Below are positions 47,971-64,000 of a stretch of DNA of 64,000 bases, one piece after another. This DNA comes from Parahoeflea alexandrii (GTDB lineage: Bacteria > Pseudomonadota > Alphaproteobacteria > Rhizobiales > Rhizobiaceae). Location: positions 496,001-560,000 of the forward strand of contig NZ_JAPWHB010000003.1 in NCBI RefSeq assembly GCF_027214025.1, in the 5' to 3' direction. The notes below the pieces were generated by a model. That model ran no database searches and had not been told where the DNA came from. It saw only the letters and a program-made list of their open reading frames with translations. The position numbers and the translations under genes were made by a program. The first letter of the stretch is position 1; each line of letters starts with the position of its first letter.

Positions 47971-47984
47971 GTCTTATATAAGAC
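47971..47984. promoter_or_regulatory. Operator 1, GTCTTATATAAGAC
   Basis: A perfect 14-bp palindrome 45 bp before the dctQM start at 48029. It is the same sequence as operators 3 and 4 and one mismatch from operator 2. The internal TATAAG could overlap a promoter -10 element. Confidence 0.85.
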
Positions 47985-48028
47985 TTGCCGACCTGTTCCG
48001 GCTGTCGGCTCTGGGGAGGAGCGTGACC

Positions 48029-48616
48029 ATGACGGTTTTACTGGCGGTGCTCAAGCCGTTGGCGGGCTTCAACACCCTCATGTTGCGCATGGGCCGCAAC
48101 GTCGCCTGGGTGGCGATGGGCCTGATGGTGCTGATCATCATCCTGCAGGTGGTTTTCCGCTACGTTCTGGGCAATGCGCTGGCCTGGCCGGACGAGGGAG
48201 CCCGCTTCCTGATGCTGTGGATGACGGCGTTGATAGCGCCCACCGCCTATCGCTGGGGCGGCTTCGTTTCCATCGAAATGGTCAAGGACATGCTGCCGGT
48301 GCGGATCGGCGCGTTTCTGGGCCTGGTGCTGCTGGCGCTGTCGCTGGTCGTGCTCGTCTACGGGTTCAGGCTTGGCCTCAATCATGTCAATTCCGGCTGG
48401 CTGTTCAACTCGAGTTCGCTGAAGCTGCCGCTCGAGTTTCTGGGGCTGGGACTGGTGCGGATCAAGCTGGCGTGGATGTACATGTCGCTGCCTGTCGGCC
48501 TGCTGTTGATGATCCTGGTCAACATTGAATTGTGCCTCAAGGCCATCGCGCATCTCATCGACCCGGAGGTGGAACTGCCCGAGGATCATGACCGCTTCAT
48601 CGTGGCGGTGGAGTAG
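48029..48616 (+). CDS. dctQ: TRAP transporter small membrane subunit (DctQ type), sulfosugar locus
   Basis: 195 residues with four membrane helices; LQVVFRYVLGNALAWPDEGARFLMLW region is DctQ-like. GGGGAGGA is 8 bp before ATG 48029 (in-frame GTG 48023 is too close to it). It stands first in a dctQM pair directly behind operator 1. The cognate binding protein follows at 50037 with its own operator copy. I infer that it imports the sulfonated sugar or a related organosulfonate. Confidence 0.88.
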   Translation: MTVLLAVLKPLAGFNTLMLRMGRNVAWVAMGLMVLIIILQVVFRYVLGNALAWPDEGARFLMLWMTALIAPTAYRWGGFVSIEMVKDMLPVRIGAFLGLVLLALSLVVLVYGFRLGLNHVNSGWLFNSSSLKLPLEFLGLGLVRIKLAWMYMSLPVGLLLMILVNIELCLKAIAHLIDPEVELPEDHDRFIVAVE

Positions 48617-48619
48617 GCC

Positions 48620-49909: not shown

Positions 49910-49987
49910 GGGTTCGGGACGTGCGGAATGTGGCAGGCGAGGCGCGATGCATGCGGTTGACAAGAGCAGGGATCTCGTCAATCTTGT

Positions 49988-50001
49988 ATCTTATATAAGA
50001 C
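49988..50001. promoter_or_regulatory. Operator 2, ATCTTATATAAGAC
   Basis: One mismatch in the outermost base from GTCTTATATAAGAC. It lies 36 bp before the dctP start at 50037 and gives the binding-protein gene its own regulated promoter. Confidence 0.8.
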
Positions 50002-50036
50002 TACTGCCGGGAAGCAGGAAAAAGGGAGGATCATCC

Positions 50037-51116
50037 ATGATAGTAAAACAGGCATTGAAGACACTGACCGCAGCGGCGCTGGGGCTGTCGGTCCTTGCAG
50101 GCGGCATGATCACGGCGGCACAGGCTGCCGACATCAAGCTGCGCGCGACGGCCAATTCGAACGAGAATGACGAGGACTATGACGGCCTGATCGTCTTCAA
50201 GGACTATGTCGAGAAGGCCTCGAACGGCGCCATCGAAGTGGAACTCTTCATCGGCACGCAACTCTGCTCCACGGGTGCTGAATGCCTTCAGGGCATCGCC
50301 GACGGATCGATCGACATCTACATCTCCACATCCGGCGGTGCCTCGGGGATCTTCCCTTACGTGCAGGTGCTTGATCTGCCCTACCTGCTGCGTGATGATC
50401 GGATCGCGGAAGCCGTGCTGACCGAAGGCACCTTCGTGCGGGCGATGCGGGAGCAGATGCTCGCCGATTCCGGCGGCATGATCCGCCTGATGACGATTGG
50501 CAACACCGGCGGCTGGCGCAATTTCGCCAATACCAAGCGGGAAGTTCGCTCGCCGGCCGACTTGGAAGGTCTGAAGATCCGCACCGTGGTGGCCGATCTG
50601 CCGCAGGAACTGGTCCGGGCCATGGGAGCTTCACCGACCCCGATCCCCTGGCCGGAACTGTTTACCTCGTTCCAGACCGGCGTGGTCGAAGGCACGCAGA
50701 ACGGCATCACCGACATCATGGGCATGAAGTTCCCCGATGCGGGGCTCAAATATCTCACGCTTGACGGTCATTCCTACATGGGCGCCCTGTGGTACATGAA
50801 CAATGAGCGGTTCATGGGCCTGGACGAGGGCCTGCGCCGCGTCGTGGTCGATGGCTTCGCCGCCCTGCAGCAGGCGACCTTCGCTTCGCCGAAACGCAAG
50901 TCCATCGAAGCCTACAAGGAGTTCGCGGCCGTGGGCGGTTCGGTCTATGTGCCGACCATGGAGGAAAAGGCCGCGTTCAAGGAAGCTGCCGCTCCGGTGT
51001 TCGAATGGTTCAAGACCAACGTCCAGGGCGGGACCACTTTCTATGACCTGCTGGTCGCCGAAGCCGCGAAGGCATCCGAAATGATCGACGGCGGTGCCAT
51101 GAAGGACATGCAGTAA
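50037..51116 (+). CDS. dctP: TRAP transporter substrate-binding protein (DctP type), sulfosugar locus
   Basis: 359 residues. Sec signal with cleavage after ITAAQA (about residue 30), then the DctP fold. LKIRTVVADLPQELVRAMGA holds the Arg that usually contacts a carboxylate, followed by SFQTGVVEGTQNG. GGGAGGA lies before ATG 50037. Behind its own operator copy and followed by a terminator, it can be made in excess over the permease, as is usual for binding proteins. The ligand is inferred, not shown, to be the locus sulfonate. Confidence 0.9.
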   Translation: MIVKQALKTLTAAALGLSVLAGGMITAAQAADIKLRATANSNENDEDYDGLIVFKDYVEKASNGAIEVELFIGTQLCSTGAECLQGIADGSIDIYISTSGGASGIFPYVQVLDLPYLLRDDRIAEAVLTEGTFVRAMREQMLADSGGMIRLMTIGNTGGWRNFANTKREVRSPADLEGLKIRTVVADLPQELVRAMGASPTPIPWPELFTSFQTGVVEGTQNGITDIMGMKFPDAGLKYLTLDGHSYMGALWYMNNERFMGLDEGLRRVVVDGFAALQQATFASPKRKSIEAYKEFAAVGGSVYVPTMEEKAAFKEAAAPVFEWFKTNVQGGTTFYDLLVAEAAKASEMIDGGAMKDMQ

Positions 51117-51142
51117 GGTCCTTGTGAAAGAGCCTCGAATGC

Positions 51143-51340: not shown

Positions 51341-51354
51341 GTCTTATATAAGAC
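51341..51354. promoter_or_regulatory. Operator 3, GTCTTATATAAGAC
   Basis: Perfect 14-bp palindrome 69 bp before the kinase start at 51423, identical to operators 1 and 4. Confidence 0.85.
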
Positions 51355-51422: not shown

Positions 51423-52328
51423 ATGACAAAAATCGTGACCGCCGGTGTGGCCGTGGTGGATTTCGTCTTCTTTCTCGACGAGATGCCGAGGCTGGCCGAG
51501 AAATACCGGGCCAATGGCGCCGAGATCACCGGCGGCGGAGGCGCCGCCAATGCCGCGGCCGCGATCGCCCGGCTGGGCGGACATGCCATGCTTGCGAGCC
51601 GGCTGGGATCGGACCAGGTCGCGGACATGATCGTCGCCGGTCTCGAGGCCGACAGGGTAGACTGCTCCATGCTGCGGCGGTTCGAGGGGCGGCGCTCCTC
51701 CTTTTCCTCGGTGTTCATCGACAAGGCGGGCGAGCGGCAGATCGTTAATTTCCGCGATCATGACTTGCCGATGGATGCCGGATGGCTGCAGGCAGCGCTT
51801 CCGGGCCAGTTCGATGCGGCACTGGCCGACACGAGATGGCCGGACGGGGCCGAGGTGTTGATGCGGGTGGCGCGGGAACGCGGGCTGCCGGGCATTCTCG
51901 ACGGAGAGGCGCCGATCCGAGAAGCCGAAGCGGCACTTCACCTTGCGAGCCATGTCGCCTTTTCGGCGCAGGGATTGCGTGACTGGGCGCAACACGACGA
52001 TCTCGAAAAGGCGCTGGCCGATGTGGCCGCTGAAACGGGAGCTTTCGTCTGCGTCACCGACGGCGCCAAGGGCGTGACCTGGCGGCATGGCTTGGCGTCG
52101 GGTTTCGAACCGGCTTTTGCGATCAAGCCGCTTGATACGCTGGGCGCCGGCGATGTCTGGCACGGTGCGTTCGCGCTCCGGCTCGGCGAGGGCGCGTCGC
52201 CGCCCGAAGCGATCCGCTTCGCCAGCGGCGTGGCGGCAATCAAATGCACCCGGACCAATGGCCGTGCCGGCTACCCGACACGTGCAGAAACCGAATCCTT
52301 CATGAAAGAGACGCCGTCATGCAGCTGA
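51423..52328 (+). CDS. PfkB family sugar kinase, probable sulfofructose kinase (YihV-like)
   Basis: 301 residues of the ribokinase fold: GGGGAANAAAAIARLGG (sugar site) and DTLGAGDVWHGAFAL (catalytic Asp, anion hole). Recalled from memory, E. coli YihV has matching segments at LADVRWHDGA and FASGVAALKCTRPGGRAG, against LADTRWPDGA and FASGVAAIKCTRTNGRAG here, closer than for other PfkB kinases. YihV phosphorylates 6-deoxy-6-sulfofructose in sulfoglycolysis. It overlaps the aldolase gene by ten bases and lies behind operator 3. An ordinary sugar kinase remains the alternative. Confidence 0.8.
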   Translation: MTKIVTAGVAVVDFVFFLDEMPRLAEKYRANGAEITGGGGAANAAAAIARLGGHAMLASRLGSDQVADMIVAGLEADRVDCSMLRRFEGRRSSFSSVFIDKAGERQIVNFRDHDLPMDAGWLQAALPGQFDAALADTRWPDGAEVLMRVARERGLPGILDGEAPIREAEAALHLASHVAFSAQGLRDWAQHDDLEKALADVAAETGAFVCVTDGAKGVTWRHGLASGFEPAFAIKPLDTLGAGDVWHGAFALRLGEGASPPEAIRFASGVAAIKCTRTNGRAGYPTRAETESFMKETPSCS

Positions 52329-53353
52329 GCGCAGGCAAATTATGGGGCATGCGCCGCATGGCCGACGACGGTGGACTGTTCAAGATGACGGCTGTCGACC
52401 AGCGGCCGCCGATCAAGGGGCCGATCGCCAGGCACCACGGCGTGACCGAAGCCCCGTGGGAGGAGGTTGCAGCCTTCAAGACCCTGCTGATCGAAACCCT
52501 GCAGGGGCAATCTTCGGCGATGCTGCTTGATCCGCATTTCGCGATTCCCAAGGGTATCGGCAAGCTTTCACCGACAAAAGGGCTGATTGTGACGCTCGAG
52601 GATTCGGTTTTCGAGGAAACGCCGGATGGACGGCTTTCGAGCGAGATCGATGACTGGTCGGTGGCCAAGATCAAGCGGATGGGCGGCGATGCAGTCAAGG
52701 TGCTGGCCTGGTACCGGCCCGATGCACCCGAACACATCCGCCAGAAGCAGAAGGATTTCACTAGGCGGGTCGGCGAGGCCTGCGCGCGCTATGACATTCC
52801 GTTCCTGTTCGAGCTGCTGGTCTATCCTCTGGCGAGCGATGCACACCAGACCACGGATTACGTCGAGATGACCGGCAAGCGCACCGACCATGTGCTGCAA
52901 TCGGTGGCGGATTTTGCCGTGCCCGAATTCGGTATCGACGTGTTCAAGCTCGAGAGCCCGGTTGCCGCCAAGGATGTTCCGGAAGGTGGCGACGCGGAGG
53001 TGCAGGCGGCGTTCGACGAGATGGGACGGCTTGCCGGCCGGCCCTGGGTGATGCTGTCGGCGGGCGCCGGCAAGGCCGAGTTCCGCAACATCCTCGCCCA
53101 CGCCTACAAAGCCGGGGCCTCGGGTTACCTCGCAGGCAGGGCGATCTGGCTCGAGCCCTTCGGGCTGTATCCCGACTGGAACGCCATGCGTCTGGGGCTG
53201 GAGACCGGCTCGGTGGATTACATGCAGGATCTCAATGCGCTTACCGATCAGGCAGCCACTCCCTGGGACAAGCACCCGGTGTTTGGTGCGGAAGGCGCGC
53301 GGTTCGCGCCCGCCGACCAGAGCTTCCGCCACGGCTACAGCGATTTCGGCTGA
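52319..53353 (+). CDS. LacD/YihT family class I aldolase, probable sulfofructose-phosphate aldolase
   Basis: 344 residues of the tagatose-diphosphate/sulfofructose-phosphate aldolase family: FKMTAVDQRPP, DAVKVLAWYRPD, FGIDVFKLESP (Schiff-base Lys, as in the DLYKVEMP region of YihT), GAGASG-like GASGYLAGRAIW with the conserved Arg. In this context it should split sulfofructose 1-phosphate into DHAP and sulfolactaldehyde. It starts inside the kinase gene, so the two are translated together. Length is closer to LacD than to E. coli YihT, so tagatose-type activity cannot be excluded. Confidence 0.8.
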   Translation: MQLSAGKLWGMRRMADDGGLFKMTAVDQRPPIKGPIARHHGVTEAPWEEVAAFKTLLIETLQGQSSAMLLDPHFAIPKGIGKLSPTKGLIVTLEDSVFEETPDGRLSSEIDDWSVAKIKRMGGDAVKVLAWYRPDAPEHIRQKQKDFTRRVGEACARYDIPFLFELLVYPLASDAHQTTDYVEMTGKRTDHVLQSVADFAVPEFGIDVFKLESPVAAKDVPEGGDAEVQAAFDEMGRLAGRPWVMLSAGAGKAEFRNILAHAYKAGASGYLAGRAIWLEPFGLYPDWNAMRLGLETGSVDYMQDLNALTDQAATPWDKHPVFGAEGARFAPADQSFRHGYSDFG

Positions 53354-53367
53354 TGCAGCGCCCGGAT

Positions 53368-53958
53368 CTAGTCGAGCAGCAGGCGATTGACGACCCGGGG
53401 CTTGTCGCCCGGGTTGGCGCCCGGCGCAATGATGACAGCCTCGCCTTCGCGCGGCGTGGTGCCCGAGATGGCGCGGATCAGCGCCGGGTGGGTGACCATC
53501 AGCTGGTTGCCTGCGCCCTGGAATTCCTCGACCGCGGCAATCAGTTCGTCCGGGATCACGTCAGGATCGGCGCCGCCGACGATCGAATTGAGATAGGCCC
53601 TGGTTTCGACCTGTCTGCGGCCAAACGCCAGTCCCGCAGTTTCGGTGGCGCGGCAGAATTCGCCGGAATAGACCGCACTGATCGAGACGGCGCGGGCCGC
53701 GAACCGCATGCCGATGCGGCGGGCCTCCTGGATGCCCCGGTCGGTCAGGCTCTTGCGGTTTTCGCAATCGCCGAGATCCGGCCTGAGCGGTTCGCCGCCA
53801 CCCGGCGTTCGCGAGTATCCGAGCAGGATCGTGTATCCGCCCTGCGCCAGACGGGCCCAAGCGGCCTCGGTGGCCGCGCCTTGAGTGGGAGGGGCAATGG
53901 CAAGGATCGCCACCGCGAGGAAGAGGGCCGCCGGCCAACGTCGCAGGTTCAATTTCAT
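53368..53958 (-). CDS. Exported histidine-phosphatase-like protein with altered active site
   Basis: 196 residues with a Sec signal (cleavage near TQGAA, residue 28). The fold of the histidine phosphatase superfamily is visible: SLTDRGIQEARRIG, VYSGEFCRATETAGLAFG and LMVTHPALIRAI. The canonical catalytic RHG/RHA near the N-terminus is replaced by GYS in ILLGYSRTPG, so the phosphorylated His is missing while the later His is kept. It is probably a pseudo-phosphatase or has another role. It lies on the opposite strand inside the sulfosugar locus. Confidence 0.78.
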   Translation of the reverse strand: MKLNLRRWPAALFLAVAILAIAPPTQGAATEAAWARLAQGGYTILLGYSRTPGGGEPLRPDLGDCENRKSLTDRGIQEARRIGMRFAARAVSISAVYSGEFCRATETAGLAFGRRQVETRAYLNSIVGGADPDVIPDELIAAVEEFQGAGNQLMVTHPALIRAISGTTPREGEAVIIAPGANPGDKPRVVNRLLLD

Positions 53959-54004
53959 ACCTGCAATCTAGTGTTTTTACCCGGTGATGTAAGGGGGAAT
54001 GTCA

Positions 54005-55393
54005 ATGTCCGGTGAAACTCTCACCATAGGCGTTCTGCCGCTGGGGCGGCCAACCTTCGATGTGGAATTCGCCGAGGAAATGCTCGGCGGCATGCTCGCC
54101 GATCTGAGGGCCACCGGCCACCGGCTGGTCGGGTCCGAAAAGTTGCTGATGGATGCCGTCGCCACCGAAGCGGCGATCGCGGACATCAAGGCCGAAAACC
54201 CGGACCGCATTCTCATCCTGCAGCTCACCTTCACCGATGCCGCTATGACCTGCCGCATCGCGGACACGTTCGCCGAGCCGCTGGCGATCTGGGCGGTTCC
54301 CGAGCCGCGGCTCGGCGGCCGGTTGCGGCTCAATGCCTTCTGCGGGCTCAATCTCGCCTCGCACGCGCTGGGGCTCAGGGGAAGGCTGTTTTCCTGGCGA
54401 TACGCGGCTCCCCATACTCCGGGTATCGAGGCGCTGCTGGCGGAAGAGCCGATGGTTCGCCCCCTGATCCCGCAGAAAGCCGGTGCAGACTCCAAGTATG
54501 GCGACGCCCTGCTGGATGGCTTGCGCGGCAAGAGCATTGCCCGGATCGGCGCGCATCCGGACGGGTTCGACACCTGCGCCTATGACAGTGGCCGTCTTGC
54601 AGATCTGACCGGAATGACCGTGACCGGGTTCGAGCTTGCGGATCTGTTTGACCGGGCGCGGGCAGCGCCGGAACCGGCGGCAAGGCGGCTCAGGATGACG
54701 CTTTCGGAAAATCTCGCCGGACTTGACGACGTCAACCAGACGGAACTCGACCGGTCGCTCAGGCTGAAGCTGGCGCTCGACGGCATGAAGGCCGAGGGCG
54801 GTTTCGATGCCTTCGCCATCCGCTGCTGGCCGGAGACTTTCACCGAATATGGTGGAGCGGTCTGCGGCCCGGCCTCGATGATGGGCGAGGGCCGCGTGCC
54901 CTGCGCCTGCGAGGCCGATGTCTATGGGGCAGCGACGCAGCTCCTGTTGCAGGCGGCAAGCGACCAACCGGTGTTTCTGGTCGACCTGGTTGACCTGGAT
55001 CCGAGCGATGACACCGGCGTGGTCTGGCATTGCGGCCAGGCGCCGATCTCGATGGCGGATCCGGACGCCGTCGCCCGGGCGACGATCCACACCAACCGCA
55101 AGATGCCGCTTTTGTTCGAGTTTCCGCTCAAGTCCGGACCGGTCACCTTTGTCCGGCTGAGCCAGGCGCGAGGGCGTCAGAGCCTGATCATCGCCCGCGG
55201 CGAGATGCTCAAGCGCGACATGGCCTTCACCGGCACGTCCGGCGTGGTGCAGTTCGAGCGCCCGGCGCGAGACGTGCTCGCGCGGGTCATCGACAGCGGG
55301 CTCGAGCATCACATGGCGCTTGCCTATGGCGATCATGTCGGGGCGCTCGAAAGCTTTGCTGCTGCTGCCGGCCTGCCGGTGATCCATCTCTAG
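54005..55393 (+). CDS. L-fucose/L-arabinose isomerase-like protein, candidate sulfoquinovose isomerase
   Basis: 462 residues. It resembles the fucose isomerase-like superfamily (COG2407): LTIGVLPLGRPTFDVEFAEE at the start, then AIRCWPETFTEYGG, VPCACEADVYGAATQLLL and GVVWHCGQAP, which carry the metal-binding Glu, Asp and His expected for aldose-ketose isomerases. In kinase/aldolase context, a sulfoquinovose-to-sulfofructose isomerase would fit; non-E. coli sulfoglycolysis is reported, as I recall, to use isomerases unrelated to YihS. ATG 54005 is preferred to 53999 because AAGGGGG is then at proper spacing. Confidence 0.72.
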   Translation: MSGETLTIGVLPLGRPTFDVEFAEEMLGGMLADLRATGHRLVGSEKLLMDAVATEAAIADIKAENPDRILILQLTFTDAAMTCRIADTFAEPLAIWAVPEPRLGGRLRLNAFCGLNLASHALGLRGRLFSWRYAAPHTPGIEALLAEEPMVRPLIPQKAGADSKYGDALLDGLRGKSIARIGAHPDGFDTCAYDSGRLADLTGMTVTGFELADLFDRARAAPEPAARRLRMTLSENLAGLDDVNQTELDRSLRLKLALDGMKAEGGFDAFAIRCWPETFTEYGGAVCGPASMMGEGRVPCACEADVYGAATQLLLQAASDQPVFLVDLVDLDPSDDTGVVWHCGQAPISMADPDAVARATIHTNRKMPLLFEFPLKSGPVTFVRLSQARGRQSLIIARGEMLKRDMAFTGTSGVVQFERPARDVLARVIDSGLEHHMALAYGDHVGALESFAAAAGLPVIHL

Positions 55394-55420: not shown

Positions 55421-56506
55421 ATGACAGACATCAGATACGGCATCATCGGCTCGGGCATGATGGGGCAGGAGCATATCCGCACGATCGGGCTTCTCGAGGG
55501 GGCTCGCGTGACGGCGGTGTGCGACCCGGACGAAGGGATGCGCTCGAGCGCCGCGCACATGGCGGGCGAGGGGTGCGCGGAATTCACCGACCATGCCGCA
55601 CTGCTGCAATCGGGGCTCTGCGATGCGCTGGTGATCTCGGCGCCGAATCACCTGCATCACCGGATCCTGAAGGACGCGCTGCCCGCGGATCTGCCCATAC
55701 TGGTGGAAAAGCCGCTGTGCACGACGCTTGCCGATTGCGAGGACATCCTCGAGCTTGCCAAGGGGCGGTCGTCGCATGTGTGGGTGGCGATGGAATACCG
55801 CTACATCCCGCCGGTGCAGCGCCTGATCGAGGCGGTGCATTCGGGAGAAACCGGCGTGCCGCGGATGATATCGATTCGCGAGCACCGGTTTCCGTTCCTG
55901 AAGAAGGTGGGGGACTGGAACCGCTTCGAGGCCAAGACCGGCGGGACGCTGGTGGAGAAATGCTGCCACTTCTTCGACCTGATGCGGCTGATCGCCAAGG
56001 CCGAGCCGGTCCGCATCTATGCGTCGGGCAATGCCGACGTCAATTTCCGCGACGAGGAATATGACGGAAAGCGCCCGGACATTCTCGACAACGCGTTCGT
56101 GGTGGTCGATTTCGACAATGGCCTGCGCGCGATGCTGGATCTGTGCATGTTTGCCGAAGGTTCGAACTGGCAGGAAGCGATCGCGGTGACCGGCGACATC
56201 GCCAAGGCCGAAGCGTTCGTGCCGGGGCCATCCCGGTTCTCGCCCGACGGCAAGGAGCGGCATTCGGAGTTCGTGCTGTCGCCGCGCGCGACCAAGCGCG
56301 AACACCGCGAGATCGTCGATGTCGATGCCGCGATCCTGGCGGTCGGCGATCACCATGGGTCGACCTTCTTCCAGCACCAGAAGTTCCTGGCGATGATCCG
56401 CAACGGCGGCGTGCCCGGGGTTTCTCTCGAGGACGGACTGAAGGCGGTGCGCATCGGGCTGGCCGCTGAGCAATCGGCAAAAACCGGAGCTGCCATCAGC
56501 CTCTGA
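55421..56506 (+). CDS. Gfo/Idh/MocA family NAD-dependent protein, candidate sulfoquinovosidase
   Basis: 361 residues. N-terminal Rossmann fold (YGIIGSGMMGQEHIR), the family motif VEKPLC, and a C-terminal alpha/beta domain (EYRYIPPVQRLI, GGTLVEKCCHFFDLMRLI). Family members are sugar dehydrogenases, but some are NAD-dependent glycosidases; GH188 sulfoquinovosidases (SqgA) belong to this fold. No GH31-type sulfoquinovosidase is present here, so this is the best candidate for releasing sulfoquinovose from its glycosides. It follows the isomerase by 27 bp. A sugar oxidoreductase role is the alternative. Confidence 0.75.
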   Translation: MTDIRYGIIGSGMMGQEHIRTIGLLEGARVTAVCDPDEGMRSSAAHMAGEGCAEFTDHAALLQSGLCDALVISAPNHLHHRILKDALPADLPILVEKPLCTTLADCEDILELAKGRSSHVWVAMEYRYIPPVQRLIEAVHSGETGVPRMISIREHRFPFLKKVGDWNRFEAKTGGTLVEKCCHFFDLMRLIAKAEPVRIYASGNADVNFRDEEYDGKRPDILDNAFVVVDFDNGLRAMLDLCMFAEGSNWQEAIAVTGDIAKAEAFVPGPSRFSPDGKERHSEFVLSPRATKREHREIVDVDAAILAVGDHHGSTFFQHQKFLAMIRNGGVPGVSLEDGLKAVRIGLAAEQSAKTGAAISL

Positions 56507-56509: not shown

Positions 56510-57271
56510 TCAGCGCAGGTTGACCGCGTAATGGATTTCCCGGGTTATGCAGCGCGACCAGCGCAATTCGACCGGACGGTTTTCGAGATCACGGGCCAAG
56601 CGGCTGATCAGCAACAACGGCTCTCCATTTTCGCAGCCCAATTTTGCGGCGTCGCGGGCGCTGGCGGCAATGGCCTTGAGCCGTTCCTCGGCGCTGCCGA
56701 TGGTGATGCCCCAGCGCTCGGAATAAAGCCTGTAGACGTTGTTGGGGATGATCGTCAGGTGATCGAAGTCGGGAAACCGGTTCGAGGGCAACGTAATAGT
56801 CTCGATCAGGATCGGCTGGCCCGACAGCGAGCGGATACGCTCGATGCGGATGACCTCATCCGCATCCTCCAGTCCGAGGGCTTCCTTTTCAGTCTTCGTT
56901 GGCTTGGCGGTTCCGGTGCTGAGCACCTGCGAATCGGGAAAGCTCGGGCTGCCCTCGTCCGGTGAGAGCCGGAAGAACTGGAACATGATCCGGCTTTCCT
57001 CGGGCTCGGCGACATAGGTCCCACGGCCCTGGCGGCGCAGCAGCAGATTGTCGGCTGTCATCGAATCGAGCGCCTTGCGCACCGTGCCCTGGCTGACATT
57101 GAGCTGGCGCGCCAGTTCCATCTCGCTGGGCAGCAACATGCCCGGCAACCAGGCGCCTTCGACCAGGCGGCGCATCAGCCGTTCGCGGACCTGGGCATAG
57201 AGCGGCTTGAAACCGATTGCCTCACCAGTGCCGGATTCGGCCGTTTCCAGCACCTGATTTTTCTTTTCCAT
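56510..57271 (-). CDS. GntR/HutC family transcriptional regulator of the sulfosugar regulon
   Basis: 253 residues. GntR winged-helix (about 20-90; LYAQVRERLMRRLVEGAW, MELARQLNVSQGTVRKALD, RQGRGTYVAEP) and a UTRA ligand domain (SGQPILIETITLPSNRFPDF). Start ATG 57271 is favoured; ATG 57304 would begin 8 bp from operator 4. The gene is divergent from suyA with the GTCTTATATAAGAC palindrome between them. That palindrome also precedes three other units of the locus, so this protein is the likely repressor, released by a sulfonated metabolite. Confidence 0.88.
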   Translation of the reverse strand: MEKKNQVLETAESGTGEAIGFKPLYAQVRERLMRRLVEGAWLPGMLLPSEMELARQLNVSQGTVRKALDSMTADNLLLRRQGRGTYVAEPEESRIMFQFFRLSPDEGSPSFPDSQVLSTGTAKPTKTEKEALGLEDADEVIRIERIRSLSGQPILIETITLPSNRFPDFDHLTIIPNNVYRLYSERWGITIGSAEERLKAIAASARDAAKLGCENGEPLLLISRLARDLENRPVELRWSRCITREIHYAVNLR

Positions 57272-57311
57272 GCTCTGCCCCGGTTGACTTTTTGCTCGTA
57301 CCATATCTTAT

Positions 57312-57325
57312 GTCTTATATAAGAC
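57312..57325. promoter_or_regulatory. Operator 4, GTCTTATATAAGAC
   Basis: Perfect 14-bp palindrome 52 bp before suyA and 41 bp from the gntR start, with a further half-like ATATCTTAT immediately beside it. It is placed for autoregulation and for control of the suyAB-slcC-comC operon. Confidence 0.85.
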
Positions 57326-57376: not shown

Positions 57377-57664
57377 GTGACCACCCCCCATTTGCTAGTT
57401 CATGACCACGCAGACAATGTCGGCGTCGTCGTTGTCGAAGGCCTGAAGGCCGGCACCAAGATGCTCTGTGTCGTCACCCATGACAATTCAAGTTTCGAAC
57501 TTGTGTCGAACGCGGATGTGCCGATTGGCCACAAGATCGCGCTCAAGGACATCAAGTCGGGCGATACGGCGATCAAGTACGGCGAGGATATCGGAAAATT
57601 CGTCGCCGATGTCGGCAAGGGCGCTCATGTCCACACCCACAACCTGAAAACCAAGCGCTGGTAG
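57377..57664 (+). CDS. suyA: (R)-sulfolactate sulfo-lyase small subunit SuyA
   Basis: 95 residues of the SAF/UxaA N-terminal type: [39 protein letters not shown] and YGEDIG, ending [12 protein letters not shown]. Split small/large altronate-dehydratase-like pairs are the form of SuyAB, which cleaves (R)-3-sulfolactate to pyruvate and sulfite. GTG 57377 follows GGAGG. Its place before suyB and two sulfolactate-dehydrogenase-like genes supports this over altronate dehydratase. First gene behind operator 4. Confidence 0.85.
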
Positions 57665-57675: not shown

Positions 57676-58857
57676 ATGGCATCGAAATATTCAAACATGA
57701 CCTTTCAAGGCTACCGGCGCGAGAATGGCCGGGTCGGCGTCCGCAATCTCGTCGTCATCCTGCCGGTCGACGACATCTCCAATGCGGCCTGCGAGGCGGT
57801 GGCCAACAACATCAAGGGTACGCTGGCCTTGCCGCACGCCTATGGCCGGCTGCAGTTCGGTGAGGACCTGGACCTGCATTTCCGCACCATGATCGGCACC
57901 GGGGCAAACCCGAACGTGGCGGCCGTGGTGGTGATCGGCATCGAACCGGGCTGGACCAAGAAGATCGTCGACGGCATCGCCGCTACCGGCAAACCGGTCA
58001 CCGGCTTCTCGATCGAGCAGAACGGCGACCTCAAGACCATCATGGACGCATCGCGGGTCGCCAAGGAATATGTCCATTTCGCTTCCGAGCTGCAGCGCGA
58101 GGAGTGCTCGATCTCGGAATTGTGGGTCTCGACCAAGTGCGGCGAGAGCGATACCACGACCGGCCTCGGGTCCTGCCCGACGGTGGGCAACATGTACGAC
58201 AAGCTGCTCCCCGAGGGCATCTACGGCTGCTTCGGTGAAACATCAGAGATCACCGGCGCCGAGCATATCTGCAAGGCCCGCGCGATCAACGAGGAAGTCG
58301 GCGAGCGCTGGTACAAGATGTGGAAGGCCTACCAGGACGACGTCATCTTCGCCCACCAGACCGACGACCTGTCCGACAGCCAGCCGACCAAGGGCAATAT
58401 CGAGGGTGGCCTGACCACCATCGAGGAAAAGGCTCTCGGGAACCTGGAAAAGATCGGCCGGACCTCGAAATACATCGACATTCTCGATCCGGCGGAAGCG
58501 CCGAAGTCGGGCAAGGGGCTGTATTTCATGGATTCGTCCTCGGCCGCGGCTGAATGCGTGACGCTGATGGCGGCCGGTGGCTATGTGGTTCACACCTTCC
58601 CCACCGGCCAGGGCAACGTGATCGGCAACCCGATCGTGCCGGTGATCAAGATCACCGCCAACCCGCGTACCGTCCGGACCATGGGCGAGCATGTCGATGT
58701 CGATGTCTCGGGGATCCTGAGACGCGAAATGACCATCGACGAGGCGGGCGATGCGCTGATCGAGATGATCATCCGCACATCGAACGGACGGGCCACCGCG
58801 GCGGAAGCGCTGGGTCATCGCGAATTCTCCATGACAAAGCTCTATCGTTCCGCTTAA
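57676..58857 (+). CDS. suyB: (R)-sulfolactate sulfo-lyase large subunit SuyB
   Basis: 393 residues of the UxaA/GarD large-subunit family: [40 protein letters not shown] (Fe/S-binding Cys region), [19 protein letters not shown] and [20 protein letters not shown]. Together with SuyA it forms the lyase that removes sulfite from (R)-sulfolactate. It follows suyA by 11 bp. An altronate/galactarate dehydratase reading is possible from the family alone, but the neighbours argue for sulfolactate. Confidence 0.87.
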
Positions 58858-58883: not shown

Positions 58884-59816
58884 ATGGCAGATATCGTCAT
58901 AACCGAATTCATGGACGAGGCGGCGGTCGGCCGCCTCGTCCAGGCATATGATACCCTCTACGATCCGAAACTGGTCGACGACCCGGCGGCGCTGCACGAT
59001 CAGCTAACATCGGCGCGGGCGCTGATCGTGCGCAATCGCACCCAGGTGCGCGAGACGCTCCTGAGCATGGGACCGAAGCTCCGCGTGGTGGGCCGGCTGG
59101 GTGTCGGGCTCGACAACATCGACGTCGCGGCCTGCAAGGCGCGCTCGATCGCCGTCATCCCGGCAACAGGAGCCAATGACCTGTCGGTGGCCGAATATGT
59201 GATCACCTCGGCGCTGATGCTGCTGCGCGGCGCCTTCATGCGATCGGCGGAAGTGGCCTCGGGCGCCTGGCCGCGCCAATCGATGATGGGGCGCGAACTG
59301 GCGGGCAAGACCATCGGTCTCGTCGGCTACGGCTCGATCGCCCGGGAAGTGGCCTGGCGGGCGCACATGATGGGTATGCAGATCGTGGCCTATGATCCCT
59401 ATCTGATGGCGGATCATCCGGGCTGGCAAATCGCCCGCAACGTGTCGCTCGACGGCGTGCTGGAATTCAGCGACGTGATTTCTCTGCACACGCCGCTGAC
59501 CGATGCGACGCGGAACATGATCGATGCCGCGGCGCTATCGCGGATGAAGCCGGATGCGATCCTGATCAATGCGGCGCGCGGCGGCATCTTCGACGAGGCG
59601 GCGCTTGCCGAGGCGCTGAAGGCGGGCCGGCTCGGCGGGGCGGCGCTCGACGTGTTCGAGACCGAACCGCTGACGGCGGAAGCAGGGGCCAAGTTCAAGG
59701 ATCTCAACAATCTCGTGCTCACGCCTCACATTGCCGGGGTGACGGGCGAATCCAACGAGCGGGTCAGTCATCTGATCGCCGACAAGGTGCTCGAAGCGCT
59801 GGGGAACAAGGCATGA
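58884..59816 (+). CDS. slcC: (S)-sulfolactate dehydrogenase SlcC
   Basis: 310 residues of the D-2-hydroxyacid/phosphoglycerate dehydrogenase family: VGRLGVGLDNIDVAACKARS, GLVGYGSIAREVAW (NAD site), HTPLTDATRNMID, INAARGGIFDEAAL (Arg) and LTPHIAGVTGESN (Glu-His pair region). The opening MADIVITEFMDEAAVGRLV resembles Chromohalobacter SlcC as I recall it. SlcC oxidises (S)-sulfolactate to sulfopyruvate. It is in the suyAB operon and overlaps comC by ATGA. Confidence 0.85.
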   Translation: MADIVITEFMDEAAVGRLVQAYDTLYDPKLVDDPAALHDQLTSARALIVRNRTQVRETLLSMGPKLRVVGRLGVGLDNIDVAACKARSIAVIPATGANDLSVAEYVITSALMLLRGAFMRSAEVASGAWPRQSMMGRELAGKTIGLVGYGSIAREVAWRAHMMGMQIVAYDPYLMADHPGWQIARNVSLDGVLEFSDVISLHTPLTDATRNMIDAAALSRMKPDAILINAARGGIFDEAALAEALKAGRLGGAALDVFETEPLTAEAGAKFKDLNNLVLTPHIAGVTGESNERVSHLIADKVLEALGNKA

Positions 59817-60817
59817 GCGACATGCTGACAATGATGCCGGAGGCCGTCACCGAGCTGATTACCGGGGCACTGACGCGCAGCCGGACTTCGTCCGAGAATG
59901 CGGCTTCGGTGGCGCGCGCGCTGTTGGCGGCCGAACTTGCGGGTCAGAACGGCCATGGCCTGCGCCGCGTCGAGGCCTATTCGGCCCAGGCGCGAGCCGG
60001 CAAGGTCGACGGCTTCGCCGTTCCCAAGGCGGAGCAGACAAGGCCGGGCGCCCTGGCGATCGATGCCGGAAACGGCTTCGCCTACCCGGCGATGGACCTG
60101 GCGCTCGACTGGTTGCCCGAAGCCGCGAAAACCCAAGGCGTTGCCATTGCCGGCATCCGCCGTTCACATCATTGCGGCGTTGCGGGCGTGATCGTTGAGG
60201 CGCTGGCCGAACGTGGCGTCGCGGCGCTGATGGTTGCAAACGCGCCGGCGGCCATGGCGCCCTGGGGCGGGCGGCGTCCGCTGTTCGGCACCGATCCCAT
60301 CGCCTTTGCGGCTCCGTTGAGTGATGGCGCGCCGGTGGTTGTGGACATTTCGCTGTCGAAGGTGGCGCGCGGCAAGATCATGGCTGCGGCCCAGAAGGGC
60401 GAGGCGATCCCCGAAGGCTGGGCGCTCGATCCGGAAGGGCAGCCCACCACTGACGCCAAGGCGGCGATGGCGGGAACGATGATCCCGCTCGGCGATGCCA
60501 AGGGAACGGCGCTTGCCCTGATGGTGGAGCTTCTCTGCGCCGGATTGACCGGGGCCAATTATGCCTGGCAGGCCACGTCGTTCTTCGACGACAAGGGCGA
60601 TCCGCCCGGTACGGGGCAGGCGATCATCGCGATCGACCCGGATGCGTTCGGACCGGGTGGCGCGGAGCGGATGACGCTGATGGCCGACATGGTTGCCGGC
60701 ACCGAGGGTGCGCGGCTGCCCGGCCGCCGCCGTCAGCAGATCCGCACGGATCTGCTCGAGAACGGAATTCCGGTGGATGCCGCACTGGCGGCAGCCATCC
60801 GCGCCATCGGAACATGA
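59813..60817 (+). CDS. comC: (R)-sulfolactate dehydrogenase ComC
   Basis: 334 residues of the malate/L-lactate dehydrogenase (Ldh2) family: LAGQNGHGLRRVEAY, RRSHHCGVAGVIVE (catalytic His), PWGGRRPLFGTDPIAFAAP and GAVVVDISLSKVARGKI-type VVVDISLSKVARGKIM. ComC reduces sulfopyruvate to (R)-sulfolactate with NAD(P)H. Paired with SlcC it acts as a racemase, supplying the (R)-form for SuyAB. It is the last gene of the operon, ending at a shared hairpin with the convergent TRAP genes. Confidence 0.85.
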   Translation: MSDMLTMMPEAVTELITGALTRSRTSSENAASVARALLAAELAGQNGHGLRRVEAYSAQARAGKVDGFAVPKAEQTRPGALAIDAGNGFAYPAMDLALDWLPEAAKTQGVAIAGIRRSHHCGVAGVIVEALAERGVAALMVANAPAAMAPWGGRRPLFGTDPIAFAAPLSDGAPVVVDISLSKVARGKIMAAAQKGEAIPEGWALDPEGQPTTDAKAAMAGTMIPLGDAKGTALALMVELLCAGLTGANYAWQATSFFDDKGDPPGTGQAIIAIDPDAFGPGGAERMTLMADMVAGTEGARLPGRRRQQIRTDLLENGIPVDAALAAAIRAIGT

Positions 60818-60830
60818 ACCGGCGCGGTTC

Positions 60831-60848
60831 CGGGGCTAATCAGCCCCG
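60831..60848. terminator. Bidirectional hairpin between comC and dctM
   Basis: CGGGGCT, AATC, AGCCCCG: a 7-bp perfect stem in the 34 bp between two convergent stops. There is no strong T-run on either side. Confidence 0.6.
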
Positions 60849-60851
60849 CCG

Positions 60852-62174
60852 TCAGTAAAGCAGCCTGACGGCCACCAAGGTAATGGCCGGGAACATCGTC
60901 AGGATGGCGACGCGGATAATATCGGTCATGACGAAGGGAAACACGCCGCGATAGGTGGCGGACAAGGGCGTGTCCTTGGCCATCGAGTTGATGACGAAGA
61001 GGTTCATGCCGACCGGCGGCGTTATCAGCCCCACTTCCACGACGATCAGCACGATGATGCCGAACCAGAGGGCGAATTCCTCAGGGCTGAGGCCAAAGTC
61101 GAGCGCTGACATGATCGGGAAGAAGATCGGAACGGTGAGCAGGATCATCGAAAGCGAGTCCATGATGCAGCCGAAGACCAGATAGAGCAGCAGTACCGCG
61201 ACCATCACCAGCCAGGGATTGAAGCCCTGGCCGCCGACATAGGCGGCGGCCGTCTGCGGCAGTTGGCTGAGCGCCAGAAAGGCGTTGTAGACCCCGGCGC
61301 CGAAGACAATGAGAAAGATCATGCCGGTCGCGCTGGCGGTTGCCAGGATAGAGCTCATCAGGGTCGAGCGGTTCAGGCCGCGATTGACCAGTGCGATCAC
61401 TCCGGTGCCGAAGGCGCCGATGGCAGCGGCCTCAGTGGGGGTGAAGATGCCGCCGTAGATGCCGCCGACCACGGCGATGAACACGAGCAGCACCGGCCAG
61501 ACCGCGATCAGGCTGCGGAACCGTTCGGAATAGGGGGCGCGATCGCGCTGACCGGCAGAGCCGGGCTTGAGCCTGACATAGATGGCGATGGCGATCATGT
61601 AACCGAGTGCGGCAAGAATGCCGGGAATGAAGGCCGCGACAAACAGCTTGGCGATGTTCTGCTCGGTCAGGATGGCGTAGATGACCAGGATAACCGATGG
61701 CGGAATCAGGATTCCCAAGGTGCCGCCGGCGGCGAGCGCACCGGTCGCCAGTTCGCCGGAATAGCCGTAGCGCTTGAGTTCGGGCAGCGCGACCTGCCCC
61801 ATCGTCGCCGCAGTTGCCAGCGACGAACCGCAGATCGCGCCAAATCCGGCGCAGGCGCCGACAGCTGCCATGGCGACGCCGCCCTTCCTGTGTCCCATCC
61901 AGGTTTCAGCCGCCTTGAACAGGGCCTGCGACATGCCGCCGAGCGTGGCAAACTGACCCATCAGCAGAAACAGCGGAATGATCGAAAGCGAGTAGCTCGA
62001 AAACGTGCCCCAGGTCAGGTTCTTGAGCTGGGCGAATATCATCAGGAACGAGCCGTTGATGAAATAGCTGCCGCCGATCCCGGTGATCAGCATGGCAAGG
62101 CCGATCGGAATGCGCAGGAAGATCAGCAGCAGCAGAACGGGAAAGGAGAGGAGGGCGATGTCGATATTGGTCAA
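60852..62174 (-). CDS. dctM: TRAP transporter large permease (DctM type), sulfolactate side
   Basis: 440 residues with about 12 helices and DctM motifs (GAICGSSLATAATMGQVALPEL, GGTLGILIPPSVILVIYAI, GIFTPTEAAAIGAFGTGV). The start is TTG 62174, overlapping the dctQ stop (TTGA), the same arrangement as the pair at 4793. It is the last gene of a minus-strand dctP-Q-M run convergent with comC. By position it may import sulfolactate, like the TRAP genes linked to slcC/comC in other bacteria. Confidence 0.9.
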   Translation of the reverse strand: MTNIDIALLSFPVLLLLIFLRIPIGLAMLITGIGGSYFINGSFLMIFAQLKNLTWGTFSSYSLSIIPLFLLMGQFATLGGMSQALFKAAETWMGHRKGGVAMAAVGACAGFGAICGSSLATAATMGQVALPELKRYGYSGELATGALAAGGTLGILIPPSVILVIYAILTEQNIAKLFVAAFIPGILAALGYMIAIAIYVRLKPGSAGQRDRAPYSERFRSLIAVWPVLLVFIAVVGGIYGGIFTPTEAAAIGAFGTGVIALVNRGLNRSTLMSSILATASATGMIFLIVFGAGVYNAFLALSQLPQTAAAYVGGQGFNPWLVMVAVLLLYLVFGCIMDSLSMILLTVPIFFPIMSALDFGLSPEEFALWFGIIVLIVVEVGLITPPVGMNLFVINSMAKDTPLSATYRGVFPFVMTDIIRVAILTMFPAITLVAVRLLY

Positions 62175-62701
62175 TGTACCGTCTCTCCATGGGACTGGCT
62201 CTGGCCTGTCAGCAGCGCCCTGGCGCTCAGGATCACGCACCAGAAGCTGATCAGGACGAAGCCGAACGCGCCTATCAGGCCTGACGCATAGGCCCACCAG
62301 ACCGGGTATTGAATGATGAAGGTGGTCTCGCCGTAGGCCAGTTTGTCAAGCGTGCCGTCCCAGTGCTTCCAGGCGAGCAGCAGCGCGATGGCGAACATCA
62401 GCAGATCGGCGACAACATCGATCAGCCTGTTGGCGCTGTCGCCCAGATGCATGGTGAGGATCTCCACCGATGCATGCTGGCGGTTGATCTGAACCCAGGG
62501 AAGAAAGGCGAAAACCGCAAAACCGGTGCCGAGTTCCACCAGTTCGAAATCACCGCGGATGGGCCCGAGCCCGATCCAGAGCAGGGCGCGTCCTGTCACC
62601 GAGGCAACGGTCGACAGGATCACGGCGACCAGTACCAGGCCGCCCAATATGGCCAGGAAAGCTGCAAGCGACCGCATCAGTCGGTCAATCCGGTCAAACA
62701 T
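62171..62701 (-). CDS. dctQ: TRAP transporter small membrane subunit (DctQ type), sulfolactate side
   Basis: 176 residues with four membrane helices and the DctQ-type loop FAFLPWVQINRQHASVEILT. GGGAGG lies six bases before ATG 62701. The stop overlaps the dctM TTG start, so they are translationally coupled. It is separated from dctP by 283 bp holding a strong hairpin. Confidence 0.88.
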   Translation of the reverse strand: MFDRIDRLMRSLAAFLAILGGLVLVAVILSTVASVTGRALLWIGLGPIRGDFELVELGTGFAVFAFLPWVQINRQHASVEILTMHLGDSANRLIDVVADLLMFAIALLLAWKHWDGTLDKLAYGETTFIIQYPVWWAYASGLIGAFGFVLISFWCVILSARALLTGQSQSHGETVH

Positions 62702-62984
62702 TTCAAACCTCCCGGGCGGGCCACGGCCACGCGCCACTGCGGACATCTAATGACGGATACCAGTAAGTGCGTGTGACGGACCAGCCAAGGCTTTTAAAGA
62801 GCTGATGCTTCCGGTTGGTCCGCCCAAGATATCCTGGATGCCGTTCTGGTCGCCAATCAGCGCACACCTTGATCGGGCGAGCGCGGCAGGATTGGCTCTC
62901 ATATCCCCCATTATTGGTCTTGATACGGTTCCGGCGGGGTTGGTCTTCGCAGACAAGCCCCGCCGGAAGCCGAAGGTTTCCCTG
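62702..62984. other. Spacer between dctP and dctQ
   Basis: 283 bp on the minus strand with no gene. It holds the hairpin at 62931-62966. I found no copy of GTCTTATATAAGAC here. Confidence 0.6.
62931..62966 (-). terminator. Strong intercistronic hairpin after dctP
   Basis: CCGGCGGGG and CCCCGCCGG are perfect 9-bp arms, extended through partial pairing of CTTGTCT with AGACCAA. It lies 18 bp past the dctP stop. It lacks a T-run, so it may attenuate read-through or protect the dctP message. Confidence 0.65.
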
Positions 62985-64000
62985 TTACTTGGTGTACTTG
63001 GCGATCAGTGCCTGTGCCTTGTCGTAAAGCGCTTCGCCATCGATACCCTTGGCGTCCATTTCCTCGAACCAGTTGTCCCGAACGGTTTCGGCGATCGCCT
63101 TCCAGCGGGCTACCTCTGCTTCGTCCAGCACGACAATGTCATTGTCGGTGGCTTCGGCGATCTTGCGTCCTGGTGCGTCGAAATCGGCCATGGTCTTGCC
63201 GGCGTAGGCCGAGAATTCCGCACCGGTGTTGTCATCGAGCACCTTCTTGAGGTCGTCAGGAAGGCTGTCGTACTTGGCCTGGTTCATGGCCAGAACAAAG
63301 GCGGCGGTGTAAAGCGCCGTATCACCCGAAAACTCGGTGTGGGTGTCGACCAGTTCGGCAACCTTGAGTGCCGGTGTGACTTCCCAGGGAATAACGGTGC
63401 CGTCAATCACGCCCTTGGAAAGGGCTTCCGGAATTGCCGGGACCGGCATGCCCACAGGCTCGGCGCCGAGTTCGGCAAGCAGGCCGTTGATCACGCGGGT
63501 CGGGCCGCGCATCTTCTTGCCCTGCATGTCCTCGAGCTTGCGGATGCCTTCACCCTTGGAGTGAATGACGCCGGGTCCATGGACCCAGGTGGCGAGAATC
63601 TTGATGCCCTTGAATTCAGTGGCTTCCATGTCCGACTTGAACAGGTCCCAATAAGCCCGGGACGTTGCTTCCGCGTTGGTCATGGTGAAGGGAAGCTCGA
63701 ACACCTCGACGCTGGGGAAGCGGCCCGGGGTGTAGCCGGGAAGAGTCCAGACGATGTCGACAACGCCATCGCGGGCCTGGTCCATCAGCTGGGGAGGCGT
63801 GCCGCCGAGCGACATGGCCGAAAACACCTCGACCTTGATGCGGCCACCGGATTCGGTGCCGATCTTTTCCGCCCAGGGAATCAGCACGCCGGCCGGGATG
63901 TTCGCCTGGGCCGGCAGGAACTGGTGCATGCGAAGGGTGACTTCCTGCGCAGCCGCACCGATCGATGATGCGCCCATTGCGGACAGGGCGAGCGCTGCCA
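62985..64000 (-). CDS. dctP: TRAP transporter substrate-binding protein (DctP type), 5' end outside window
   Basis: At least 338 residues. The frame stays open to the window edge, with a signal-peptide core (AALALSAMGASSIGAAAQ), so the true start lies beyond 64000; ATG 63977 is internal to the signal peptide. The mature DctP fold shows VTLRMHQFLPAQANIPAG, KLEDMQGKKMRGPTRVINGL (ligand Arg) and SKGVIDGTVIPWE. It is the binding protein for the second TRAP system; sulfolactate is the contextual guess. Confidence 0.9.
   Translation of the reverse strand, partial: AALALSAMGASSIGAAAQEVTLRMHQFLPAQANIPAGVLIPWAEKIGTESGGRIKVEVFSAMSLGGTPPQLMDQARDGVVDIVWTLPGYTPGRFPSVEVFELPFTMTNAEATSRAYWDLFKSDMEATEFKGIKILATWVHGPGVIHSKGEGIRKLEDMQGKKMRGPTRVINGLLAELGAEPVGMPVPAIPEALSKGVIDGTVIPWEVTPALKVAELVDTHTEFSGDTALYTAAFVLAMNQAKYDSLPDDLKKVLDDNTGAEFSAYAGKTMADFDAPGRKIAEATDNDIVVLDEAEVARWKAIAETVRDNWFEEMDAKGIDGEALYDKAQALIAKYTK

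Follow-up and report, generated by a model that had tools for sequence, protein, structure and literature searches.

Genes for sulfoquinovose cleavage and sulfolactate desulfonation share one palindrome at a Parahoeflea alexandrii locus, suggesting a single GntR regulon

We analyzed a 64,000-nucleotide stretch of Parahoeflea alexandrii DNA (the window; contig NZ_JAPWHB010000003.1, positions 496,001 to 560,000, assembly GCF_027214025.1), set in a genome of 5.54 Mb in 68 contigs, in which genes for cleaving the sulfosugar sulfoquinovose (SQ) lie next to suyAB and other genes for desulfonating a three-carbon (C3) sulfonate. A first-pass annotation had read positions 47971-63977 as a single-regulon pathway from SQ to pyruvate and sulfite, and open reading frame (ORF) calls and profile matches confirmed that all of the genes it named there, including two TRAP transport systems (TRAP1 and TRAP2), are long ORFs with family matches. 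The aldose 1-epimerase gene just upstream, at 46897-47907, is also a member of the cluster, and is present in 39 of the 80 related loci described below. The features of the locus, with gene identities as obtained by computation and enzyme roles as predicted, are as follows.

46897..47907, + strand: aldose 1-epimerase, candidate SQ mutarotase (PF01263, 2.6e-79)
47971..47984: operator GTCTTATATAAGAC before TRAP1 dctQ
48023..48616, + strand: TRAP1 DctQ (ORF; similarity to DctQ of SqgA-bearing plasmid clusters)
48620..49909, + strand: TRAP1 DctM (similarity to DctM of SqgA-bearing plasmid clusters)
49988..50001: operator ATCTTATATAAGAC before TRAP1 dctP
50037..51116, + strand: TRAP1 DctP, SQ-type binding protein (similarity to plasmid clusters of the sulfo-SMO type)
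51341..51354: operator GTCTTATATAAGAC before the kinase gene
51423..52328, + strand: predicted sulfofructose kinase, YihV-like PfkB (PDB 7ag6)
52319..53353, + strand: class I LacD-family aldolase, candidate sulfofructose-1-phosphate aldolase (PF01791; NF009498)
53368..53958, - strand: histidine phosphatase superfamily protein (PF00300, 1.4e-6)
53999..55393, + strand: predicted SQ isomerase, SftI/SqvD-like (NF048012, 7.3e-74, below cut-off)
55421..56506, + strand: SqgA, predicted GH188 NAD-dependent sulfoquinovosidase (PDB 8qc2, 8zn9 and 8qc3)
56510..57304, - strand: GntR/UTRA (HutC-type) regulator (PF00392 and PF07702)
57312..57325: operator GTCTTATATAAGAC between gntR and suyA
57377..57664, + strand: SuyA, predicted sulfolactate sulfolyase small subunit (galactarate-dehydratase N-terminal match, 5.8e-10)
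57676..58857, + strand: SuyB, predicted sulfolactate sulfolyase large subunit (PF20629, PF04295)
58884..59816, + strand: SlcC, predicted (S)-sulfolactate dehydrogenase (PF02826, PF00389; synteny)
59813..60817, + strand: ComC, predicted (R)-sulfolactate dehydrogenase (PF02615; NF040650 below cut-off)
60852..62171, - strand: TRAP2 DctM, candidate C3-sulfonate importer (ORF; start codon tentative)
62171..62746, - strand: TRAP2 DctQ (ORF)
62985..63998, - strand: TRAP2 DctP (ORF, cut by the window edge)

The Gfo/Idh/MocA protein, which the first-pass annotation had rightly placed in the cluster, matches three PDB entries far better than any other solved structure: 8qc2 at 5.6e-116 and 8qc3 at 1.3e-115 over 357-359 residues, and 8zn9 likewise at about 1e-116, with the next match at only 9.6e-19. 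The first two of these are the GH188 enzymes FlSqgA and ArSqgA (PMC10755693; this and the other papers are cited for the parts of their text available to us). The active-site residues given there for ArSqgA, i.e., K107, Y136, R166, K172, E189, H193 and H321, map with a constant offset of 10 to K97, Y126, R156, K162, E179, H183 and H311, each of which is kept in all 70 of the relatives from the 80 named loci that matched over their full length, and Glu163 as given in the same text falls one residue off that offset (E154). The protein therefore retains the SQ-contacting residues, including the one at the C4-hydroxyl, and is best read as a GH188 NAD-dependent sulfoquinovosidase, SqgA, and not as a redox step. 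This reading changes the scheme proposed originally, since a cluster with a sulfoquinovosidase could start from SQ glycosides.

The kinase is, by its PDB ranking, closest to the sulfofructose kinase YihV (7ag6, 8.7e-60), as had been proposed, followed by the sugar kinase entry 2rbc at 1.3e-44 and by ribokinases from 3.6e-20. Alignment showed K27, R138 and D244 in 72 of 72 relatives and N109 in 64 of 72; we take K27, N109 and R138 to be the YihV sulfonate-site residues and D244 the base. The aldolase belongs to the DeoC/LacD family (PF01791), with the NCBIfam subfamily NF009498 above its cut-off, and its PDB matches are led by 8tnf, a “DUF2090 domain-containing protein” (1.1e-91), followed by LacD tagatose-bisphosphate aldolases at about 2e-38 and YihT at 7e-16; Lys211, which aligns with what is presumably the Schiff-base lysine of LacD, is kept in all 73 relatives. 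The first-pass label of a LacD/YihT-type aldolase thus survives in its LacD half only, and of the two enzymes it had proposed to hold against ordinary tagatose or ribose enzymes, the kinase falls with the sulfosugar enzyme and the aldolase with the tagatose enzymes.

The isomerase, described at first as fucose-isomerase-like, does carry the Fucose_iso_C domain, and in NCBIfam it matches a single model, NF048012 for the SQ isomerase SftI (249 bits, cut-off 700). Its AlphaFold2 model (predicted local distance difference test score 89.8) was matched by Foldseek to L-arabinose/L-fucose isomerases with an E-value of 2.6e-23, and to 1fui at 2.2e-15. These fold matches have moderate template modeling scores of 0.52-0.58 by query and a root-mean-square deviation of about 24 Å over the whole chain, so that the domain arrangement either differs or is poorly fitted. 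Residues E305 and D329 are kept in 80 of 80 named loci, and their spacing of 24 residues is like that of what we take to be the metal ligands of FucI. A published model of SqvD, a member of the same family, likewise has conserved metal ligands (PMC9594981). Compared with the described forms of sulfoglycolysis, the aldolase does not rank with the YihT type of the Escherichia coli sulfo-Embden-Meyerhof-Parnas (sulfo-EMP) pathway in the PDB, the isomerase is of the Fucose_iso_C/SftI type and not YihS, and the DeoC/LacD-family aldolase is not the class II SqiA enzyme of sulfo-EMP2, i.e., the sugar half is by sequence a hybrid that joins a kinase of the EMP type to an isomerase probably of the EMP2 type and to an aldolase of neither type.

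These matches also bear on whether an ordinary sugar cluster of the tagatose, fucose or ribose type simply lies beside suyAB by chance. Family-level annotation of the genes is generic, and the aldolase ranking leaves a small doubt, but the SqgA and kinase matches led us to reject a tagatose, ribose or fucose cluster, and residue conservation and the shared palindrome described below add to them; we regard a chance neighborhood of this kind as barely credible.

The desulfonation half consists of suyA, suyB, slcC and comC, which lie together and encode two galactarate dehydratase-family halves (SuyA and SuyB), a 2-hydroxyacid dehydrogenase (SlcC) and an Ldh_2 protein (ComC), for which the best NCBIfam model is NF040650, L-sulfolactate dehydrogenase, with a score under the cut-off. 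Near full-length isomerase orthologues (≥53% identity) are present in 39 of 297 family genomes, own included, and 33 of these 39 contain a SuyB match of 78-100% identity, the next class being dehydratase-family paralogues at 30-38%. SuyB is thus, by sequence identity, clearly separate from the altronate/galactarate dehydratase paralogues.

We compared the transporters with those of six plasmid clusters in which SqgA lies beside a flavin-dependent oxidoreductase, i.e., clusters of the sulfoquinovose monooxygenase (sulfo-SMO) type. Five of the six contain a TRAP system, and the sixth (Marinovum) contains ATP-binding cassette (ABC) transporter genes; TRAP1 is 67-72% (DctP), 66-79% (DctM) and 40-53% (DctQ) identical to the five. 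TRAP1 is therefore, on sequence similarity, an importer of the kind found beside other SQ genes, which bears out the TRAP-type import proposed earlier. TRAP2 is unrelated in detail to systems of this type (binding protein 24-29%), its DctM and DctQ occur in five of the 80 named loci, all Hoeflea, and its position makes it a candidate C3-sulfonate importer.

A different sugar substrate also has to be weighed, since Paracoccus wurundjeri Merri (2025) has a tandem sulfofucolytic-sulfolactate sulfolyase pathway that takes sulfofucose to sulfite in one bacterium (PMC12421959). If the sugar half studied here acted on sulfofucose (6-sulfo-galactose) via sulfotagatose, the LacD-like enzyme would be a sulfotagatose-1-phosphate aldolase, consistent with its rank nearest to tagatose-bisphosphate aldolases and with the kinase and aldolase of the same Pfam families that were considered for sulfotagatose in P. 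wurundjeri. In that organism, however, sulfofucose brought no significant increase in the kinase or the aldolase, and the EMP-like route was set aside (PMC12421959). With SqgA keeping its SQ contacts, including the one at the C4-hydroxyl, the isomerase matching an SQ isomerase model and TRAP1 being common to SqgA-bearing sulfo-SMO-type clusters, we consider sulfofucose distinctly unlikely.

Two overlapping sets of loci, which share some contigs and are not independent, were used to survey the arrangement of these genes. The first comprises 40 loci taken around close isomerase genes, with two of the 40 around more distant homologues, and in 11 of them the kinase, aldolase, isomerase, SqgA, SuyB, SlcC and ComC occur within 20 kb. 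The second comprises 80 named isomerase loci, the best 80 of at least 536 candidates, with flanks of at most 10 kb and some loci ended by contig ends, so that its counts are lower bounds; here 62 loci contain all four of the kinase, aldolase, isomerase and SqgA, and 12 of the 80 have SuyB, SlcC and ComC alongside these four enzymes. Of the 12, six are from Hoeflea, three from Nitratireductor and three from metagenome-assembled genomes. The eight named isomerase relatives at 77-89% identity (L106-L113) are all Hoeflea, and that of H. poritis is at 65%. Two of these loci, L106 and L107, come from the cluster-bearing isolates H. halophila KCTC 23107 and H. alexandrii DSM 16655. The grouping of SQ genes with suyAB genes is, on this conserved synteny, not chance.

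The survey also identified a second architecture, in the order DeoR - TRAP - MauG - kinase - aldolase - isomerase - SqgA - epimerase - aldehyde dehydrogenase - SlcC, in many other named loci, mostly Rhodobacterales records, and only one of the 38 loci with a DeoR gene (L149) has suyAB within the examined stretch. For example, Rhodobacterales-type loci such as L132, L136, L140 and L185 have an SlcC-like gene after SqgA, epimerase and aldehyde dehydrogenase genes, with no comC or suyAB in the stretch. A plasmid collection yielded only distant isomerases (18 records, best 38%). One of its records, plasmid pZZM402 of Zymomonas mobilis ZM4 (L080:128-11361), carries a class II aldolase, an epimerase, an SftI-like isomerase (38%) and SqgA (48%), along with major facilitator superfamily and TonB transporters and a GabD-like gene, and is likely, judged by these genes, to be an SQ cluster in an ethanol-producing organism.

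Promoter comparison among relatives identified a palindrome, GTCTTATATAAGAC (ATCTTATATAAGAC at dctP), which precedes TRAP1 dctQ, dctP and the kinase gene and is also present between gntR and suyA. Allowing at most one mismatch, TCTTATATAAGA occurs in the window only at 47972, 49989, 51342 and 57313, where 0.01 matches are expected and where none of 100 shuffles gave four sites, and a search of the whole genome with the 13-mer TCTTATATAAGAC, again with at most one mismatch, returned those four cluster sites only. The palindrome and its restriction to the locus are direct observations, and they give the single regulon of the first-pass annotation strong independent support. That the GntR protein binds the palindrome is what we infer from its position and distribution.

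In 78 other genomes, the exact 13-mer is present in 22 of the 38 that have the isomerase and in three of the 40 that lack it, at 42 distinct sites, of which 39 precede suyA, kinase or TRAP1 genes. The three isomerase-less genomes carry it between gntR and suyA, and because the same site is thus found where there is no sugar half, the GntR protein probably responds to a C3 sulfonate, which is its likely inducer. Three sites are strays, two near genes for ABC sugar-binding proteins and one at soeABC-like genes in G066. In this last genome, the operator (L200:8130) stands at the start of a set of molybdopterin oxidoreductase, 4Fe-4S and DmsC-like genes (7887-12729) that looks like a SoeABC sulfite dehydrogenase, which suggests that sulfite oxidation can join the regulon.

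To separate a regulon from mere neighborhood, we examined the 38 isomerase-positive relatives with one mismatch allowed, according to where suyB is located. Where suyB is in the isomerase's 20-kb stretch (15 relatives), a site precedes both the kinase gene and suyA in 13, with the other two (G211 and G265) having a site at suyA only. Where suyB is outside that stretch (17 relatives), a site still precedes both genes in seven, with suyB about 15 kb away on the same contig in G167 and G255 and on a different contig in G031, G066, G131, G235 and G288. The remaining six relatives have no SuyB of at least 78% identity. Among the named loci, the operator is present in 17 of 17 with a GntR gene vs. 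six of 63 without one (Fisher p of about 1e-12, which cannot be taken as a true probability because the sequences are related). Most simply, this pattern would mean that an ancestral suyAB regulator, the GntR protein, extended its regulon to the sugar genes in this lineage, and that clusters of the DeoR type are under other control.

Taken together, we consider it highly probable that the locus is a single GntR regulon for the complete use of SQ and its glycosides. Judging from homology and synteny, TRAP1 would import SQ or sulfoquinovosyl glycerol, SqgA would free SQ, and the epimerase would open or mutarotate it. The SftI/SqvD-like isomerase would then convert SQ to sulfofructose, the YihV-like kinase would phosphorylate this to sulfofructose-1-phosphate, and the class I LacD-like aldolase would cleave the product to dihydroxyacetone phosphate and (S)-sulfolactaldehyde, which an aldehyde dehydrogenase presumably encoded outside the locus would oxidize to (S)-sulfolactate. 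SlcC and ComC would pass (S)-sulfolactate via sulfopyruvate to (R)-sulfolactate, and SuyAB would split this into pyruvate and sulfite. The GntR protein would bind GTCTTATATAAGAC before TRAP1, dctP, the kinase gene and suyA, and probably senses a C3 sulfonate.

Several observations weigh against this reading. The aldolase appears nearer to tagatose-bisphosphate aldolases than to YihT, which disfavors a simple YihT label, and for both the isomerase and ComC the best NCBIfam model scores below its curated cut-off. P. wurundjeri does not grow on SQ, though it has a kinase and an aldolase beside suyAB (PMC12421959). Of the 17 relatives in which suyB and the isomerase gene are not in the same stretch, four (G033, G060, G105 and G239) have a site on the suyA side only and six (G004, G021, G065, G082, G150 and G208) on neither side, and only two of the 38 named loci with a DeoR gene have the operator. 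The locus ORFs include no sulfolactaldehyde dehydrogenase (GabD/SlaB) gene, and the genome contains no fifth operator that would mark one outside. Both halves of the SQ-to-sulfite route proposed originally are thus present, but the pathway is incomplete within the locus, because it lacks this dehydrogenase.

Relatives offer a candidate for this step. Some of them encode a GabD-like protein beside comC (e.g., L088:9318-10772). A protein of this kind, used as a query against 26 of the 39 isomerase-positive genomes, found its best match (67-100%) no more than 10 kb from suyB in 12 of them. In G164 the match (67%) is just upstream of the epimerase gene in the same cluster; in G021, G033, G060, G146, G211 and G265 a match of 74-82% lies elsewhere, which weakens the link to suyB; and in seven, with the P. 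alexandrii genome among them, the top match has 54-59% identity and also lies elsewhere. The order suyA-suyB-slcC-comC-aldehyde dehydrogenase-epimerase recurs in four separate suyAB loci (L088, L089, L091 and L105), and 29 of the 80 named loci contain an aldehyde dehydrogenase of the GabD-like family. The GabD-like protein is, on this evidence, the best candidate sulfolactaldehyde dehydrogenase in those relatives. The E. coli succinic semialdehyde dehydrogenase 3jz4 scores above the characterized sulfolactaldehyde dehydrogenase 8c54 with it, so that sequence cannot separate the two activities. The same step is likewise left unexplained in the available text on P. wurundjeri (PMC12421959), and the gene beside comC is a specific candidate for a dehydrogenase of the type not found in that work.

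The P. alexandrii genome itself contains 31 aldehyde dehydrogenase-family matches, four of which are 40-48% identical to the GabD-like protein of the Zymomonas cluster, and the surroundings of three of these four hold nothing tied to sulfonates. C58:246970 lies by an iron alcohol dehydrogenase gene, and in seven other genomes, two Hoeflea genomes without a close isomerase among them, its closest relative is 67-71% identical; C50:534030 lies beside a class III aminotransferase gene; and C50:577100 lies by genes for an iron alcohol dehydrogenase and an AMP-binding enzyme. The fourth paralogue is C31:466741. We also rejected the aldehyde dehydrogenase gene within the window (8747-10159), which is about 37 kb before the epimerase gene, by glutamine synthetase-like and iron alcohol dehydrogenase genes, with no operator near. 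It belongs to a row of genes (4212-11301) for a TRAP transporter, a glutamine synthetase-like protein, an aldehyde dehydrogenase and an iron alcohol dehydrogenase, with a LuxR-type regulator gene after them, and this row appears to be a catabolic cluster. For sulfite disposal, a SoeC-like gene (47%) is located elsewhere in the genome, along with nine TauE-family genes.

The missing dehydrogenase is also one of the points that would fit two separate neighboring systems, one for SQ import and partial degradation with excretion of a C3 product, e.g., sulfolactate, and one scavenging external sulfolactate via TRAP2 and SuyAB. There are two TRAP systems in the locus, suyAB loci that carry this GntR gene also occur on their own, and no dehydrogenase in the locus links the halves. 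Against this, one palindrome is common to both halves and found nowhere else in the genome, it is present on both sides in seven of 17 relatives with suyB apart, and a GabD-like gene lies near suyB in 12 of 26 genomes, and we consider two separate systems very unlikely.

Within the single-regulon reading, the sites on both halves in relatives where these are separated, together with sites at suyAB alone, mean that a suyAB regulon seems to have captured sulfoglycolysis. We tentatively suggest, with a confidence somewhat short of an even balance, that an old suyAB regulon captured the whole sulfoglycolytic pathway, with a C3-sulfonate-sensing GntR repressor controlling both halves, and with a housekeeping GabD-type enzyme completing the route in Hoeflea and a co-located GabD in relatives. 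If so, a product formed downstream would induce the upper pathway itself, and SQ would be taken to sulfite within one cell.

Two further genes of these loci deserve mention. The histidine-phosphatase-family protein (53368-53958), with a hydrophobic N-terminus by eye, is encoded on the opposite strand between the aldolase and isomerase genes; such a gene is present in 17 of the 80 named loci, with two copies in some relatives. A MauG/di-haem cytochrome c peroxidase-like gene is present in 51 of the 80 (L106-L185), mostly between dctP and the kinase gene, including the Hoeflea loci L106, L107, L108, L111 and L115. It is absent from the window, where the dctP-kinase gap is only about 300 bases.

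SQ, a highly abundant sulfur sugar of plants and algae, is produced in amounts estimated at about 10 billion tons a year (PMC10755693). Most accounts of how it is broken down involve cross-feeding, with one bacterium cutting the sugar and another desulfonating the C3 piece, and sulfosugar cleavage with desulfonation in one bacterium has been called unusual (mBio 2025, PMC12421959). In Hoeflea and several relatives, both halves are tied by regulatory evidence at the sequence level, which predicts release of sulfite or sulfate without sulfolactate cross-feeding, and the operator may serve as a marker for finding the regulon in metagenomes. Our search of the mainly open literature, mostly titles and the starts of abstracts, found no description of a regulon or operator joining sulfo-EMP and suyAB.

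Hybrid sulfo-EMP and GH188 clusters are known (PMC9594981, PMC10755693, PMC13372026; 2026 review PMC12890257), and the Rhodobacterales-type sugar half may already be drawn in JACS 2023 Figure 5c, where clusters of Jannaschia faecimaris and of a Paracoccaceae bacterium are named. The hybrid sulfo-EMP/EMP2 clusters of Proteobacteria similarly mix SqvD- and SqiA-type enzymes with sulfo-EMP enzymes (PMC9594981, PMC10599462, PMC13372026), but in the available text their end product, where given, is 2,3-dihydroxypropane-1-sulfonate (DHPS) or sulfolactate, and they do not include suyAB. The sulfo-EMP system of Arthrobacter AK01 also has SqgA and no GH31 sulfoquinovosidase, and differs in its YihS isomerase, its ABC transport and its excretion of sulfolactate (PMC8873060, PMC10755693). 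For Ensifer sp. HO-A22, complete conversion of SQ to sulfite in one organism has been proposed, in this case through sulfo-Entner-Doudoroff and DHPS-degradation clusters predicted from gene content, with no shared regulation described in the accessible text (PMC10599462). The nearest published system is that of P. wurundjeri. The first-pass annotation was not aware of a described cluster of such composition, but a tandem cluster leading from a sulfosugar to sulfite has been published, for sulfofucose and with another upper pathway (PMC12421959). No operator analysis is given in the available text on that system, its cluster contains no aldose-ketose isomerase, and its demonstrated upper pathway is of the Entner-Doudoroff type on sulfofucose with an ABC importer. 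In both systems, a sulfosugar is taken, or predicted to be taken, to sulfolactaldehyde and then on by SlcC, ComC and SuyAB encoded in one cluster, and in both the suyAB cluster includes a kinase and an aldolase of the same Pfam families.

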